Assembly (NCBI GenBank): GCA_000237975.1
Contig: CP003179.1
Span: forward strand, 1,426,001 to 1,490,000
Origin: Sulfobacillus acidophilus DSM 10332
Lineage (GTDB): Bacteria; Bacillota; Sulfobacillia; Sulfobacillales; Sulfobacillaceae
Reading direction: 5' to 3'
DNA: 64,000 nt
Shown: positions 55,245 through 61,228 of the stretch, one piece after another
Layout of the letters: the number at the start of each line of letters is the position of its first letter
Position numbering within the stretch: the stretch's first letter is position 1
Notes under the pieces: generated by a model
Told to the model about the DNA's origin: nothing
The model's input: the letters and a program-made list of their open reading frames with translations, nothing else
Databases searched by the model: none
Translations under genes and position numbers: made by a program

Positions 55245-55263
55245 GGGAGCCCCAGGGGCTCCC
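55245..55263 (-). terminator. Hairpin downstream of the NCS1 permease gene
   Basis: GGGAGCCCC and GGGGCTCCC face each other around a single base, about 70 bases after the permease stop on the minus strand. The T-run is poor (TCTCATTT). Confidence 0.5.
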
Positions 55264-55335: not shown

Positions 55336-56688
55336 TCAGGATTCCGTCGGAAGAGGAGACGCGGGCTCCGGCCAGAAGAGGTAGATCACCAGCGCCACCG
55401 AGAAGCCGACCCAAAACGTCAAATCGGCGCCACCCAATGCGTGCGCGATGGGGCCTTCGAACCAGGTGGTATTCATGAAAGGTACGGAGACCGCTAACCC
55501 TATCAGAAAGCTGACCAATCCCCGAGGTCGGACGGCTTGGATGGGAAGATTCCGGTCGCGTCGGAGATAGAAACCGGCGAGTAGGACCCCCATCCAAGGA
55601 GTCATCCAATAGCCGAGCAACAAGAGAAAATTGGAATAATACGTTTCGAACGTGCCTGAACCCCAGAGACTCAATCCTAGACCAATCCCGCTGGCCATTA
55701 ACGCCATGGCCCAGCGCGGCAAGCGAATGTCCAAGGACCCGGCCGACAACGCGTTGGAATAGAGGTTCAGGGCGTCGGCAGCGGTTCCTCCGAGAATAAT
55801 CGCCACCACCGCGAGGTTGCCATAGCCGCCCATCACGTGATGGAGGGCGCCAATGGGATTAGAGGCCTCGGGACCGGCAATCACCGCGACCGCGGCCCCG
55901 ACTAATTCGAGCCAAACCGAAGCAATCCAGGCGCCGCCAAAACTGGCCCCAATAACCGGACGGGCAGGGGTCGAGGCCGGGAGATACCGGCTATAGTCGG
56001 AGGCGTAGGGTCCCCAACTGCCGATATAGGAAAAAGCCGCGGCGACCATGATGGCAAACGTGACCCACGGCGAGTGGAGTACCGGGTGATACGCCTTGAG
56101 CAGGGGGGATTTGTGCCAGACCACGGCGGAAACGAGAAGAAACATGATGCCCAGAACCACGGACATGATCCGCTCATAGGTATGAATCAAATTATGGCCT
56201 AAAACGGCGATAATCCCTTGGATGAAAACCAAGAGGATCGCGGCTTGCCAAAAGCTGAGCCCAGGCCATAAAATCCGTAAGCCGTAAGAACCCAGGATAT
56301 TATTCACGGAAAACCAACCAATGGTGCTCACGTAATTAAAAAGCCCGGGAATATAACCGCCTATGCGTCCTAAAAAATAGCGGCCAATCATGAGTTGGGG
56401 TAATCCATAGCGAGGGCCCATCGCGGCGAATAGCCCGAGGACCCAGGCGCCCAAGGTATTGCCGACCAAAAGGGCTGCGACGGTCCATGACCACGGCATT
56501 CCTAAGGCTATGGGCAAAAAGCCCAATGCGTAATCGGCAATCGTGAGGTTGCTGCCTAACCATAAGGTAAATTGGCTGATCGGTTTGCCGTGCCGTTCCG
56601 GCGCCGGAACCGGATCCACCCCGAACGGCTCGACTTTCCATACGGCTTCTCCATAACGCGGCGAAGAATCGACAACTGACGATGCCAT
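55336..56688 (-). CDS. NCS1-family permease, candidate niacin transporter
   Basis: This 450-residue secondary transporter has about 12 helices of the nucleobase:cation symporter-1 family (cytosine, allantoin, thiamine precursors). Family features: FTLWLGSNLTIADYALGFLP in helix 1, MIGRYFLGRIGGYIPGLFNYVSTIGWFSVN in helix 3, SYIGSWGPYASDYSRYLP and ADALNLYSNALSAGSLDIRLP. ATG at 56688 follows AAGGGAGGT. It lies just after niaR and its promoter carries the same operator sequence as the nadC promoter. Uptake of nicotinate, nicotinamide or a related pyridine is inferred from that context, not from the protein itself. Confidence 0.8.
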   Translation of the reverse strand: MASSVVDSSPRYGEAVWKVEPFGVDPVPAPERHGKPISQFTLWLGSNLTIADYALGFLPIALGMPWSWTVAALLVGNTLGAWVLGLFAAMGPRYGLPQLMIGRYFLGRIGGYIPGLFNYVSTIGWFSVNNILGSYGLRILWPGLSFWQAAILLVFIQGIIAVLGHNLIHTYERIMSVVLGIMFLLVSAVVWHKSPLLKAYHPVLHSPWVTFAIMVAAAFSYIGSWGPYASDYSRYLPASTPARPVIGASFGGAWIASVWLELVGAAVAVIAGPEASNPIGALHHVMGGYGNLAVVAIILGGTAADALNLYSNALSAGSLDIRLPRWAMALMASGIGLGLSLWGSGTFETYYSNFLLLLGYWMTPWMGVLLAGFYLRRDRNLPIQAVRPRGLVSFLIGLAVSVPFMNTTWFEGPIAHALGGADLTFWVGFSVALVIYLFWPEPASPLPTES

Positions 56689-56750
56689 CCGTCTACCTCC
56701 CTTGAACCCGAAGACTTCATTACCCCGGATCAGGGAGAAGTTTATCCTAT

Positions 56751-56781
56751 TGTATATACAGCTGCAACTACCGAATGACAT
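56751..56781 (-). promoter_or_regulatory. Promoter and NiaR-type operator of the NCS1 permease
   Basis: On the minus strand ATGTCA, 17 bases, TATATA form the promoter. The 10-base palindrome TGTATATACA (56751-56760) overlaps the -10 box. The 14 bases AGCTGTATATACAA are identical to the site before nadC. Confidence 0.72.
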
Positions 56782-57286
56782 CAATGCCGGCTCGTTTTAG
56801 GGCATCGAGCGCTTGCGTCAAATCGGTCAGGTGAAGATATTCGACCGTATGCATGTGAAATCCGTCGGTTAAGGAGGAGAGCAAGGTCGCCTGGGCCCGG
56901 TCGACTTCCCGCAAAAACATTTCCACATCTTTGCGAGAGCGGAGTTCCAGCGCGCCGGACAATTCCCCATATAAGGGGTGTTCCACCATGACGTTTTTTA
57001 CGACCAACCCGTGATCGATTAACGTATAGAGTTCCGTCGCGGTCTTGTCCGGGGGATGCCGAACCGAGAGGACCGCTTTTTGATGGGAATGAGGATGGGG
57101 ATTTAATAAGTAGCCGCGCGGGGTGGACAAAATAGGGGTTCCGGACGCCCGCAAAATCGCGATTTCGTGGACCACGACCTGTCGGGTGACGCCGACTTGG
57201 CGCGCCAAATCCTCCCCCCGGATAGGTTCCGGTACGTGTTGCAACAAGTCGAGAATCCGCGCTTGACGTTCTTGCCGTTCATGCAT
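56768..57286 (-). CDS. niaR: NiaR-type niacin-responsive transcriptional repressor
   Basis: This repressor represses NAD synthesis and niacin uptake genes when nicotinic acid is present. The 172-residue protein has an N-terminal winged helix-turn-helix (RQARILDLLQHVPEPIRGEDLARQVGVTRQVVVHEIAILRA). The C-terminal 3H ligand domain is marked by conserved histidines in VEHPLYGELSG and DGFHMHTVEYLH. ATG at 57286 is chosen for its distance from GGAGG. It overlaps the PNPOx-like gene by 8 bases, so the two are coupled. The flanking operators and nadCBA support the call strongly. Confidence 0.9.
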   Translation of the reverse strand: MHERQERQARILDLLQHVPEPIRGEDLARQVGVTRQVVVHEIAILRASGTPILSTPRGYLLNPHPHSHQKAVLSVRHPPDKTATELYTLIDHGLVVKNVMVEHPLYGELSGALELRSRKDVEMFLREVDRAQATLLSSLTDGFHMHTVEYLHLTDLTQALDALKRAGIDVIR

Positions 57287-57860
57287 CGGCATCATCCTCC
57301 AACGTGTCGAGATGCTGGGCGAGTGGCGTGGGCAACTGGTCGATGGTGGCAAGATTATGGTCGATCCAATATTGCCGGATCCCGTCCGGACCCTTTTGTT
57401 CGGCCCAACGGGCGAGTGTATTCCGAGGACCTTGATACGTCATGAGGGGCACACCGTAGCCACACGAGGTTTGAACTTGGGAAATCCGAACGGTAATGAT
57501 TTGGCGTATTCCCGGCCAATTCGGGAACCGGCTTATCCAGGTCACCCATTCGGGATGATCGGGTAAAATCACGGATCCTTGACCAAAAATCCGCAAAATG
57601 AGGGGAGGACCTTCAAAAGCACAAAACATCAGGGTAATGCGGCCATTTTCGGTCACATGGCCGCTGGTCTCGTTCCCGCTACCCGTCAGATCGAGATATG
57701 CCACGGTGTTGGGGGTGATCACCCGGAAACTGTCATACCCTTTCGGCGAAAGGTTGATATGGCCGTCTGCACTTAAAGGCGCCGTCGCGACAAAAAATAC
57801 CGGCTGCCGCGATATAAAGGATTCCAGTTGAGGCGTCAGTTCCGGATAAAATTGGGCCAT
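57279..57860 (-). CDS. Pyridoxamine 5'-phosphate oxidase-family (FMN split-barrel) protein
   Basis: This 193-residue flavin-binding split-barrel protein has an N-terminal LESFISRQPVFFVATAPLSADGHINLSPKG, FRVITPNTVAYLDLTGSGNETSGHVTENGRITLMF and the segment YGVPLMTYQGPRNTLARWAEQKG. This subgroup is annotated as PNPOx-related but is not the vitamin B6 oxidase itself; substrates are unknown. It is the first gene of a leftward unit with niaR and faces nadC across a 112-base promoter region. A link to pyridine nucleotide metabolism is plausible only from context. Confidence 0.78.
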   Translation of the reverse strand: MAQFYPELTPQLESFISRQPVFFVATAPLSADGHINLSPKGYDSFRVITPNTVAYLDLTGSGNETSGHVTENGRITLMFCAFEGPPLILRIFGQGSVILPDHPEWVTWISRFPNWPGIRQIITVRISQVQTSCGYGVPLMTYQGPRNTLARWAEQKGPDGIRQYWIDHNLATIDQLPTPLAQHLDTLEDDADA

Positions 57861-57913
57861 CAGGAATTCCCCTCTCTAGGGTACCGCTTTCCTATATTGT
57901 GCCATACCGGCTC

Positions 57914-57944
57914 TTGTATTTCAGCGGCGTTAGCTGTATATACA
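57914..57944 (+). promoter_or_regulatory. Promoter and NiaR-type operator of nadCBA
   Basis: TTGTAT (57914-57919), 17 bases and TATATA (57937-57942) make a good promoter. TGTATATACA (57935-57944) covers the -10 box, with AGC before and A after it, exactly as at the permease promoter. Binding here could also affect the divergent PNPOx-niaR unit. Confidence 0.78.
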
Positions 57945-57972
57945 ACAGTAAAAACACAGGAGGGGTTGCGGG

Positions 57973-58812
57973 GTGGATATGCCCTGGATGTGGGAGCGGA
58001 TCGTCCGATGGGGACTGGAAGAAGACGTCGGGCATGGCGACGTGACCAGTTGGACCATTTTTGAGGCGGAGCATTGGGGGCGAATTGCGTTTATGGCTCG
58101 TGAAGCCCTTGTCGTCGCCGGATTGCCTGCGATGCCGGCGATATGCCGGGTCCTCCCCGAATTGACGGTCGAGTTGGCCGTCAATGACGGCCAACGGGTG
58201 GCCCCTGGTACGGCGCTAGCGTGGTTAGCCGGCCCGACTCGCACGGTTTTGGCGGCCGAGAGGGTTCTGGTGAACATTTTACAAAAGCTTTCCGGGATCG
58301 CGACCATGACCCGCCGTGTGACTGAGCGACTGGAGGATCTGCCGACACGGGTGCTGGATACCCGGAAAACAACCCCTGGATGGCGTGATTTAGAGAAGTA
58401 CGCTGTGCGTCAAGGCGGCGGCGTCAATCATCGGGCCGGGTTAGACGGCGGTATTTTGATCAAGGATAATCATATTGCGGCCGCCGGCGGTATTTGGCCG
58501 GCCGTTCAAAAAGCGCGCGAGAAAGTGGGACCGCTGGTCGCCATCGAAGTGGAAATAGACCGCCTCGATCAACTGGACGAAGCGCTTAGTGCCTCTCCCC
58601 AAGCGATTTTGTTGGATAACATGCCGATACCGGACATGGCCGAAGCGGTCCGGATCGTGAACCGACGCGTGTTTTTGGAAGCCAGCGGCAATATCCGTCT
58701 GGATAACGTACGGGCGATCGCGGAAACCGGTGTCGACGGCGTGTCGCTCGGTTGGCTGACCCATTCGAGTCCAGCGGTCGATATCGGTGCCGATTGGCGG
58801 GAGGGCGTATGA
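57973..58812 (+). CDS. nadC: Nicotinate-nucleotide pyrophosphorylase (quinolinate phosphoribosyltransferase)
   Basis: NadC converts quinolinate and PRPP to nicotinate mononucleotide. The 279-residue protein has EEDVGHGDVTSW, LNILQ-like NILQKLSGIAT, the catalytic DTRKTTPGWRDLEKYAVRQGGGVNHRAGL with active-site Arg, Lys and His residues, IKDNHI and the C-terminal EASGNIRLDNV. The GTG at 57973, eight bases after AGGAGGGG, is the likely start; the ATG two codons later is possible. The stop overlaps nadB (ATGA). Gene order nadC-nadB-nadA differs from the nadB-nadC-nadA order of Bacillus. Confidence 0.96.
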   Translation: MDMPWMWERIVRWGLEEDVGHGDVTSWTIFEAEHWGRIAFMAREALVVAGLPAMPAICRVLPELTVELAVNDGQRVAPGTALAWLAGPTRTVLAAERVLVNILQKLSGIATMTRRVTERLEDLPTRVLDTRKTTPGWRDLEKYAVRQGGGVNHRAGLDGGILIKDNHIAAAGGIWPAVQKAREKVGPLVAIEVEIDRLDQLDEALSASPQAILLDNMPIPDMAEAVRIVNRRVFLEASGNIRLDNVRAIAETGVDGVSLGWLTHSSPAVDIGADWREGV

Positions 58813-60296
58813 CCCCACCGGTCTTGATAGTGGGGGCCGGAGTCGCCGGGTTAACGGCGGCCCTTTATTCGGCGCGCCAAGGTTTTCCGGTGATCCTGGT
58901 CGCCGCGGGCCCGGGCGAAACGACGAATACCTATCGGGCACAGGGGGGCGTCGCCGTCGCACTCTGGCCGGATAACCCCGCCGATCATGCGGAGGACACG
59001 TTGGTCGCGGCCCGTGGCCTCGCCCATGCCGAGGCGGTACGATTGTTGACCGAACAAGCCGCCATTGCGGTTCGGGAGATGTTTGAAAACGCCGTGTTCG
59101 AAGGAACCCCGGAACATCCCGTTCGCGGCCTGGAAGCCGGTCATTCCCGTCCGCGCATCCTTCATGCGCCGGATGGCTACACCGGACAGGCCATTTTACG
59201 CTATCTGGAAAGCCAAGTGGCGGGTGAACCGCGCATTCGCCGGGTGTCGGGTCGGGTGGCGAGCCTCATAACCCGAGGCGATCGGGTGGTCGGCCTCCAA
59301 TTGGCATCGAGTGAAGAGATACTGGGCCACGCGGTGATTTTGGCGACCGGAGGCTATGCCGGGCTCTATCCATTGAGTACCAATCCCTCGTCCGCCCGGG
59401 GCGAGGGACTGTGGTTAGCCTATCAGGTGGGCGCGACTTTGCAAGATCTGGAATTCGTCCAATTTCATCCCACCGTCTTATCCGAAGAACGACGCCCTCC
59501 CCTATTATTAACCGAAGCCTTGAGGGGCGCCGGTGCCTGGATTGTCAACCAATCCGGCACGCGCGTTTTACGGGACCATCCGTTAGGGGAGCTTGCCCCG
59601 CGTGATGAAGTGGCCCGAGCCGTCCATCAAGCGGAACCGGCCTATCTCACCCTAGAGCCGGTCGGCGATGCAGCCTATCGGCAATTTCCCAAATTAGCCC
59701 ATGCACTTCGCGAAAGGGGCTTTGATTTGGTCCGGGATTGGCTCCCGATTATTCCCGGGGCGCACTTTACGATGGGCGGTATACGGACGGACCTGACCGG
59801 ATGGACGGGGGTGCCGGGGTTATGGGCGGTAGGCGAAGTAGCGGTCACCGGCATCCATGGCGCCAATCGTCTCGCCTCCAATTCGTTATTGGAAGGACTG
59901 GTGTTTGGTCGCCGGGCAGCCTACGCGGTCGCCGATGTGACGCCACCCAGCCCCCATAGTCCGCAGACGACTCCCGAGGCTCCGGAAGGCTTTTGGCGGG
60001 TGACGAATCGTGCCCAAGAGGTTTTGGCCCGCGTTTTGGGCGTTGTGCGGCGGGAATCCGATTTACGCCTGGCGCTTGACGAACCATGGGAACCGGGCCG
60101 GTTTTTCAGCGACTGGTTGGTCACCCGAATGTTAGAAGCGGCCCTCGCCCGTCGCGAAAGTCGAGGGGCGCACTATCGCGAGGAATGTTCCGGGCCCCAT
60201 GAGGAGTTTCGGGGCCATTTTTGTCATCAACAGGGTCAGCCGATGGTTTTCAGACGGTGCGACCAAGAGTCCAAACGGAAGGAGTGCTTAACATGA
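58809..60296 (+). CDS. nadB: L-aspartate oxidase
   Basis: This FAD enzyme oxidises aspartate to iminoaspartate for quinolinate formation. The 495-residue protein shows the FAD fold VLIVGAGVAGLTAALYSA, YRAQGGVAVAL, EFVQFHPTVL, LLTEALRGAGA, the catalytic APRDEVARAV region, and HFTMGGIRTD ... GEVAVTGIHGANRLASNSLLEGLVFGRRAA. The C-terminal helical domain (about 390-470) is followed by a short basic tail. Start and stop both overlap neighbouring nad genes by 4 bases. Confidence 0.96.
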   Translation: MTPPVLIVGAGVAGLTAALYSARQGFPVILVAAGPGETTNTYRAQGGVAVALWPDNPADHAEDTLVAARGLAHAEAVRLLTEQAAIAVREMFENAVFEGTPEHPVRGLEAGHSRPRILHAPDGYTGQAILRYLESQVAGEPRIRRVSGRVASLITRGDRVVGLQLASSEEILGHAVILATGGYAGLYPLSTNPSSARGEGLWLAYQVGATLQDLEFVQFHPTVLSEERRPPLLLTEALRGAGAWIVNQSGTRVLRDHPLGELAPRDEVARAVHQAEPAYLTLEPVGDAAYRQFPKLAHALRERGFDLVRDWLPIIPGAHFTMGGIRTDLTGWTGVPGLWAVGEVAVTGIHGANRLASNSLLEGLVFGRRAAYAVADVTPPSPHSPQTTPEAPEGFWRVTNRAQEVLARVLGVVRRESDLRLALDEPWEPGRFFSDWLVTRMLEAALARRESRGAHYREECSGPHEEFRGHFCHQQGQPMVFRRCDQESKRKECLT

Positions 60297-61228
60297 CGGT
60301 GAAAGAAACGGTGGAGGCGATTGACGACCTGAAACGACGCCAAGATGCGGTTATCGTGGCGCACAATTATCAACCGGGGCCCATTCAGGATATCGCCGAT
60401 TTTGTGGGCGACAGTTTAGCCATGGCCCGTTGGGCGCAGAAAATCCCGGCGAAAACCCTGATCATCGCCGGGGTCTATTTTATGGCAGAAACTGCGGCCA
60501 TCGCCTGTCCCGACAAAGAGGTGTTGATTCCTAATCCGGAGGCGGGTTGTTCGCTGGCGGAGTCGATTTCACCCGAGGAATTAATGGCGTGGAAAGCCGA
60601 TCATCCGGATGCGGTGGTGGTGTCGTATGTTAATACCTCGGCGGCAGTCAAGGCCCTGTCGGATTATTGTTGTACCTCGTCCAATGCGGTAGCGGTGGTC
60701 AACGCGATTGACCCGGAACGGGAGATTTTATTTTTGCCGGACTTCTTTTTGGGTTCTCATGTCATTCGCCAAACCGGTCGCCACAATATTCAATTATGGC
60801 CGGGCGAATGCCACGTGCATGCCACGATTGATCCCGATCAATTACACGATAAAATGAGGCGATTTCCCGATGCCGAACTCTTGATTCACCCCGAGTGCGG
60901 GTGTACGACGAAAGCATTGGCAATTCCTCCGGACGGGATCCGAGCACACGTACTGTCGACGGACGGGATGTTGGTGCATGCCCGAAAGGCTGACGGCCGA
61001 CGATTTGTGGTAGCGACCGAGATCGGCCTTTTGCATCGCTTACAGAAAGAAAATCCCGATAAGGAGTTTATCGCGGCCGAAGCCGAAGCCCGTTGTCCAT
61101 TTATGAACATGATCACGCTGGATCATATTTATCGGGCATTATCTGATCATATCTATCGGGTGGAGATTGATCCGGATATTCGCCGGCGCGCTTGGCAGGC
61201 GATCGATCGGATGTTGGCGATTGGGTAA
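60293..61228 (+). CDS. nadA: Quinolinate synthase
   Basis: This [4Fe-4S] enzyme condenses iminoaspartate with dihydroxyacetone phosphate to quinolinate. The 311-residue protein has AHNYQPGPIQDIADFVGDSL, GVYFMAETAAI, the cluster ligands in NPEAGCSLAES (Cys86), HPECGCTTKA and EARCPFMNMITL, and the C-terminal MNMITLDHIYRAL. ATG at 60293 overlaps the nadB stop, preceded by GGAAGGAG. It completes de novo NAD synthesis up to NaMN with nadB and nadC. Confidence 0.96.
   Translation: MTVKETVEAIDDLKRRQDAVIVAHNYQPGPIQDIADFVGDSLAMARWAQKIPAKTLIIAGVYFMAETAAIACPDKEVLIPNPEAGCSLAESISPEELMAWKADHPDAVVVSYVNTSAAVKALSDYCCTSSNAVAVVNAIDPEREILFLPDFFLGSHVIRQTGRHNIQLWPGECHVHATIDPDQLHDKMRRFPDAELLIHPECGCTTKALAIPPDGIRAHVLSTDGMLVHARKADGRRFVVATEIGLLHRLQKENPDKEFIAAEAEARCPFMNMITLDHIYRALSDHIYRVEIDPDIRRRAWQAIDRMLAIG

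Follow-up and report, generated by a model that had tools for sequence, protein, structure and literature searches.

The locus described here was analysed within the window, a stretch of DNA of 64 kb, and comprises a gene for an NCS1-family permease adjoining a niaR-type regulator gene. The following features were delineated:

55245..55263, minus strand: terminator-like hairpin 3′ of the permease gene with an 8-pair stem (consensus scan; such matches do not exceed the chance number there)
55336..56688, minus strand: NCS1-family permease, 450 aa, predicted niacin importer (PF02133, E 1.4e-34)
56750..56763, minus strand: NiaR-type operator AGCTGTATATACAA, covering the −10 box of the permease promoter and conserved before orthologous permeases
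56768..57286, minus strand: niaR, niacin-responsive repressor by homology, with HTH_11 (PF08279) and 3H (PF02829) domains
57279..57860, minus strand: gene for a PNPOx-like FMN-binding flavoprotein (PF01243, E 2.4e-12)
57932..57945, plus strand: NiaR-type operator, covering the −10 box of the nadCBA promoter; the same site precedes nadC in the genomes G005, G014 and G015
57973..58812, plus strand: nadC (TIGR00078, 289 bits, above cut-off)
58752..60296, plus strand: nadB, L-aspartate oxidase (best matches are L-aspartate oxidase models, at most 396 bits and below their cut-offs)
60221..61228, plus strand: nadA (NF006878, 374 bits, above cut-off; PF02445)

Along the minus strand, the order is flavoprotein gene, niaR, a 79-base gap holding the operator, permease and hairpin, with nadC, nadB and nadA running divergently on the plus strand. 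As no terminator was found in the 79-base gap, the permease gene, which lies on the same strand directly 3′ of niaR, may receive read-through transcription from niaR as well. The flavoprotein gene overlaps the start of niaR by 8 bases and is probably co-transcribed with it; a PNPOx-like gene adjoining niaR was not seen in the relatives examined.

Operator sites in the window genome

The window holds exactly two copies of the 14-mer AGCTGTATATACAA, at 57932–57945 (plus strand) before nadCBA and at 56750–56763 (minus strand) between niaR and the permease gene, and no further match with up to two mismatches was found in the 64 kb. Such near-matches are expected by chance 0.07 times, and two copies were obtained in 0 of 100 shuffles. 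The 11-mer core TGTATATACAG is confined to these two sites across the entire genome of 3,557,831 bp. A previous sequence-only reading of this DNA had proposed the repeated 14-mer as well as its placement before nadCBA and before a niaR-adjacent NCS1 permease, and both proposals were borne out, including the gene identities. Located in the divergent region, the plus-strand operator could also have the flavoprotein–niaR–permease side as a second target.

The same reading had placed each copy over a TATATA −10 box lying 17 bases from its −35 element. This holds for the nadC promoter, where TTGTAT lies 17 nt upstream of TATATA, and for the relatives, where TTG was found exactly 17 nt 5′ of TATATA at 19 of 33 orthologous sites as compared to 0–2 at the neighbouring spacings, indicating that the site covers a −10 box. 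It does not hold for the permease promoter of the window, where the hexamer at this distance is ATGTCA, a weak −35 element that agrees with TTGACA at four of six positions and lacks the TTG. A consensus promoter scan called neither the nadC nor the permease promoter.

The NiaR regulator and a published NiaR operator

The regulator of the window matched both HTH_11 and 3H above cut-off, which is the domain architecture of NiaR, and aligned with the PDB entry 7cv0 of NiaR with an E value of 2.7e-36. For the Bacillus halodurans protein BhNiaR, the metal/niacin-binding residues are His83, Glu91, His150 and His152, and niacin is the effector of NiaR (PMC7713382). Residues H77, E85, H144 and H146 of the window NiaR (numbered from the ATG at 57286) align with these four positions and are invariant in the relatives aligned, nine sequences being compared.

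The NiaR operator of Streptococcus pneumoniae, TACWRGTGTMTWKACASYTRWAW, has been confirmed by promoter mutation (PMC5343564). Read as TTGTATATACAG, the window site agrees with the published NiaR operator core GTGTMTWKACAS at 11 of 12 positions, and GTGTATATACAG, present in several relatives, agrees at all 12. This core-like site stands before the NAD gene nadC as well as before the permease gene.

Conservation of the niaR–permease pair and its site

Loci of relatives were searched for in 61 whole genomes. In 13 family-mates, an orthologue of the permease (61–71% identity) directly follows niaR, an order that is never reversed. In all 13, the two genes are separated by a TGTATATACA-type site, the exact 10-mer being replaced in one of them by TGTATATACT and a neighbouring TGTATAGACA. 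The other neighbours of the pair vary between genomes, so that the adjacency of niaR and permease is the conserved part. One orthologue of 71% identity, in genome G035, neither adjoins niaR nor has the site upstream.

When 84,980 species genomes were scanned, 39 orthologous permease loci were obtained, belonging to Sulfobacillus, Alicyclobacillus, Sulfoacidibacillus and other Bacillota. The exact 10-mer TGTATATACA was found at most 300 nt upstream of the permease gene in 33 of them; two of the six loci missing it carry TGTATAGACA. Throughout the 411,440 bp of these loci the 10-mer occurs 36 times, and all 36 copies are located just upstream of the permease gene. The core TGTATATACAG was likewise rare genome-wide in the genomes searched, occurring mainly before this permease gene and nadC. 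The site and the gene pairing, whose search in related genomes had been suggested as a check, were thus both recovered. Retention of the site at 33 of 39 loci, its match to the published core and the conserved niacin/metal residues together render control of the permease by NiaR, as originally proposed, well supported at the sequence level.

Family, fold and residues of the permease

Within Pfam, the permease matched only PF02133, assigning it to the NCS1 family; it is not a PnuC protein, as judged from the lack of a PF04973 match. The TIGR00800 model scored 137.5 bits against a cut-off of 353.1, indicating a divergent NCS1 member that belongs to the broader Pfam family and fold but not to the TIGR00800 subfamily. 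The curated equivalog models also stayed below their cut-offs, with 104 bits for CytX (cut-off 310), 40 for CodB (326) and 32 for PucI (620), and the best curated matches, generic NCS1 and CytX, were all below cut-off.

An AlphaFold model of the permease (pLDDT 85.7) retrieved Mhp1 and CodB as the best matches in a Foldseek search of the PDB, with an E value of about 1e-11 and a TM score of 0.74 for Mhp1; a direct phmmer search of the PDB gave no match, in contrast to the profile and fold searches. Pfam family and fold are the same as for Mhp1, CodB, CytX and PucI, whereas sequence identity amounts to 17–18%. Residue W125 corresponds to the stacking tryptophan (Mhp1 Trp117, CodB Trp108) and the aromatic Y221 lies at CodB Phe204, while N129 takes the position of Mhp1 Gln121. 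Near the predicted pocket, the phylogenetic group of the permease (clade A, see below) carries N129–N130 and D305, in contrast to most other NCS1 lineages with T, A or I at position 130 and N at 305. We considered D305 as a substitute for Mhp1 Asn318 and rejected it, since the profile alignment puts Asn318 at N312 and Asn314 at N308; D305 therefore supports no claim on specificity. The Mhp1 sodium ligands S312 and T313 fall on A306 and L307 in a weak profile alignment (E 0.02). Sodium coupling would thus seem doubtful and, with these ligand positions seemingly not conserved, proton coupling is possible.

Other NCS1 lineages and their regulatory sites

A tree of 103 NCS1 proteins placed clade A, with a core of 38 rows (support 98), inside a set of 81 rows (support 99) that excludes clade B (five rows, support 100) and clade C. 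Clade B, encoded by order-mates without nadA, lies beside niaR in convergent orientation, and its promoters contain TGT-N4-ACA sites, such as TTGACAAGACATGTGTTAACACAGATTCT. Clade C belongs to genus g8 of the same order, in which genus nadA is kept and the NCS1 gene does not adjoin niaR; all seven members examined (loci L056, L059, L062, L064, L307, L318 and L319) carry TGTMAWGACAGRTG inside the promoter spacer. A TGTMAWGACAGRTG-type site also precedes nadC in G016, G017 and G029. Genome-wide, TGTMAWGACAGRTG was matched 12 times in eight genomes, seven times at clade C NCS1 genes, four times at nadC, with the nadC matches in G029 and G031 assigned from position alone, and once inside a coding frame (G020:C1:3064), a match that we rejected as an operator and took as chance. 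The site of genus g8 differs in sequence (TGTCATGACAG type) and is again common to nadC and an NCS1 gene.

PurBox-like CCGAAC...GTTCGG sites lie upstream of the NCS1 genes of a sister lineage (L310, L311, L313, L315, L316, L320, L323 and L324, as well as the paralogue at C1:2840198-2841544 of the window genome). The full PurBox consensus extends beyond a central CGAA. The PurBox assignment rests on the CCGAAC core, the central PurBox motif being CGAA (PMC6377658), and the lineage probably consists of purine-related permeases.

Genome G025 holds a second NCS1 copy (contig C61, L215:759-12969; 51–53% identical), which is located behind two molybdenum-hydroxylase large subunits in a cluster that also contains CoA-transferase, enoyl-CoA hydratase, nitrilase-like and arylformamidase-like genes and is possibly an N-heterocycle degradation operon. 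We did not adopt nicotinate catabolism as the role of this XDH-type cluster, as its large subunits match CO-dehydrogenase/aldehyde-dehydrogenase-like models below cut-off, and it stays a lead. Separately, archaeal NCS1 genes of about 40% identity (L288, L292, L294, L295 and L296) lie divergent to a gene for a conserved protein of 330 aa, in which an HTH-like amino terminus precedes an apparent substrate-binding domain; a thiamine-precursor role is suggested for these genes.

Loss of de novo NAD synthesis in genomes with the pair

Most genomes with the niaR–permease pair jointly lack nadA and nadC. Among genomes of at least 90% completeness, nadA/nadC were lost in 9 of 13 clade A pair-holders as compared to none of 13 genomes that contain niaR but not the pair (Fisher p 4.6e-4, in a test that ignores shared ancestry and with many of the genomes being drafts). 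Adding clade B, nadA was lost in 14 of 18 pair-holders (Fisher p 1.9e-5, ancestry likewise ignored). As the group without the pair includes seven genus g8 genomes, in which the clade C NCS1 gene also has a NiaR-type site, the contrast pertains to niaR adjacency, not to NiaR-controlled NCS1 genes in general. Furthermore, nadA was missing in 14 of the 24 genomes of further permease-bearing loci, among which Sulfobacillus benefaciens AMDSBA4 and S. harzensis seem identical to G021 and G028, respectively. The genomes devoid of nadA include those of S. harzensis and Alicyclobacillus mengziensis.

The marker PF04095 for pncB found no match in 59 of the 61 genomes. This apparent absence was misleading, as the genomes have a PncB of the PRK08662 type, which was present in the window genome and in pair-holders without nadC (PF01729, confirmed by NF006415). 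PncA was detected at or near the curated cut-off in the eight genomes examined, the window genome included, and no PnuC (PF04973 above cut-off) was found in any of the 61 genomes. The permease is the one transport gene found with a niaR site. With nadA and nadC lost, and PncB and PncA kept where checked, these presumptive auxotrophs should depend on an imported NAD precursor, i.e. on niacin. The near-complete genomes G003 and G012, both of one genus, are devoid of niaR, nadA and the clade A permease and keep PncB; another uptake route must therefore exist there.

Predicted role of the permease and alternative explanations

Quite probably, the permease takes up niacin, as nicotinate and/or nicotinamide, for NAD salvage, acting as a secondary transporter with the NCS1 fold under repression by NiaR. 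The sequence-only reading had predicted the import of nicotinate or a related pyridine, and the nadA/nadC loss in 9 of 13 pair-holders, PncB and PncA where checked, and the absence of PnuC lend support to this prediction. When niacin is plentiful, metal-loaded, niacin-bound NiaR would occupy TGTATATACA and occlude the −10 box, turning off both de novo synthesis by nadCBA and import by the permease, and both would be on when niacin is scarce. Imported nicotinamide would undergo deamidation by PncA, and nicotinate would proceed via PRK08662-type PncB to NadD and NadE. The sites, their conservation, the gene identities and the co-occurrence with the loss of de novo synthesis are observations, whereas we infer the binding of NiaR and the repression, along with the substrate, direction and coupling ion of the permease. 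With both PncA and PncB present, the sequence evidence fits nicotinate and nicotinamide alike as the substrate.

As the palindrome coincides in part with the TATATA −10 box, and as palindromes resembling TATA can come about as promoter sequences, it might represent an A+T-rich promoter element, or the site of another regulator, with the permease outside NiaR control. We regard this as highly improbable, given that TGTATATACA is found nowhere else in the 411 kb of orthologous loci, that TGTATATACAG is rare genome-wide and mainly precedes the permease gene and nadC, that the site matches the published NiaR core, and that the TGTCATGACAG-type site of genus g8 differs and yet is shared between nadC and an NCS1 gene.

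A NiaR-controlled permease could also import an NAD precursor other than niacin, such as nicotinamide riboside or quinolinate, as the regulatory arguments suit any NAD precursor and the Thi7 homologue Nrt1 of yeast carries nicotinamide riboside (PMC6837554). This is unlikely, however, as quinolinate is unusable in genomes without nadC, the enzymes present in the genomes checked, PncB and PncA, are those for nicotinate and nicotinamide, and the NiaR effector is niacin (PMC7713382). To a similar degree we find it unlikely that the imported substrate is a nucleobase, hydroxymethylpyrimidine, vitamin B6 or another heterocycle, with NiaR control being incidental or serving cofactor co-ordination. 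Such a substrate would fit the cytosine, hydantoin, allantoin and related compounds carried by known NCS1 members, the generic NCS1 and CytX models as best curated matches, and the second copy of G025 within a molybdenum-hydroxylase gene cluster, but every curated substrate-specific model scored far below cut-off, and the sister lineage with PurBox-like CCGAAC sites is the better candidate for a nucleobase role. The PNPOx-like gene adjoining niaR in the window genome points the same way, yet it was not seen by niaR in relatives, and the persistence of the pair in genomes without nadA and nadC would be left unexplained.

Relation to known systems and significance

As in the NiaR regulons of Firmicutes, Fusobacteria and Thermotogales, a NiaR-type repressor and a palindromic operator with a matching core are present, and an uptake gene would share its control with the genes of de novo NAD synthesis. 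The arrangement differs in the uptake gene, which is an NCS1 permease in place of the NiaP, NiaX, NiaY or PnuC transporters of the known regulons. The literature that we found, with most subscription papers and preprints outside our reach and an earlier prediction hence being possible, contained no bacterial case linking NCS1 with niacin and named NiaP, NiaX, NiaY and PnuC only, with no NCS1 protein among the NiaR-controlled or known B3 transporters, in agreement with the initial claim. By analogy, an NCS1-type carrier of an NAD precursor, as predicted for the permease, would not be wholly unprecedented, since nicotinamide riboside is transported in yeast by Nrt1, which is homologous to the NCS1 protein Thi7 (PMC6837554, PMC3092764). 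In contrast to the permease, Nrt1 is eukaryotic, takes a riboside as substrate and is free of NiaR control.

In six niaR loci of other families of the class, a membrane protein of about 170–200 aa forming one cluster is encoded near niaR (L089:6537-7055, L097:5184-5696, L100:6305-6835, L110:3458-4054, L113:9910-10476 and L114:5659-6192), and all six genomes are without a nadA match. The protein matched no Pfam or NCBIfam model, and we take it to resemble an ECF S component such as NiaX. Unlike these class-mates, the window lineage has the NCS1 permease in that place.

As relatives unable to make NAD keep the niaR–permease pair, the permease most likely represents a so far unrecognised kind of vitamin B3 importer in bacteria, within the known NCS1 family. 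On balance, we also favour the broader view that NCS1 constitutes a further family of committed bacterial B3 importers, which would have joined NiaR regulons on two or more occasions (clade A; clade B and/or C) and would provide the main B3 entry in Sulfobacillus- and Alicyclobacillus-type acidophiles without de novo NAD synthesis. Of the B3 auxotrophs in a large set of gut genomes, only 25% gave a confident detection of NiaP, NiaX or NiaY, and no committed B3 transporter is known for E. coli (PMC6593275). If true, niacin import by an NCS1 permease would partly close this gap and call for the re-annotation of many "cytosine/purine permeases", and it would predict niacin auxotrophy in acidophiles. 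Regulatory signals may furthermore indicate the likely substrates of NCS1 paralogues that share a genome, with NiaR sites marking niacin and PurBox-like sites marking purines.
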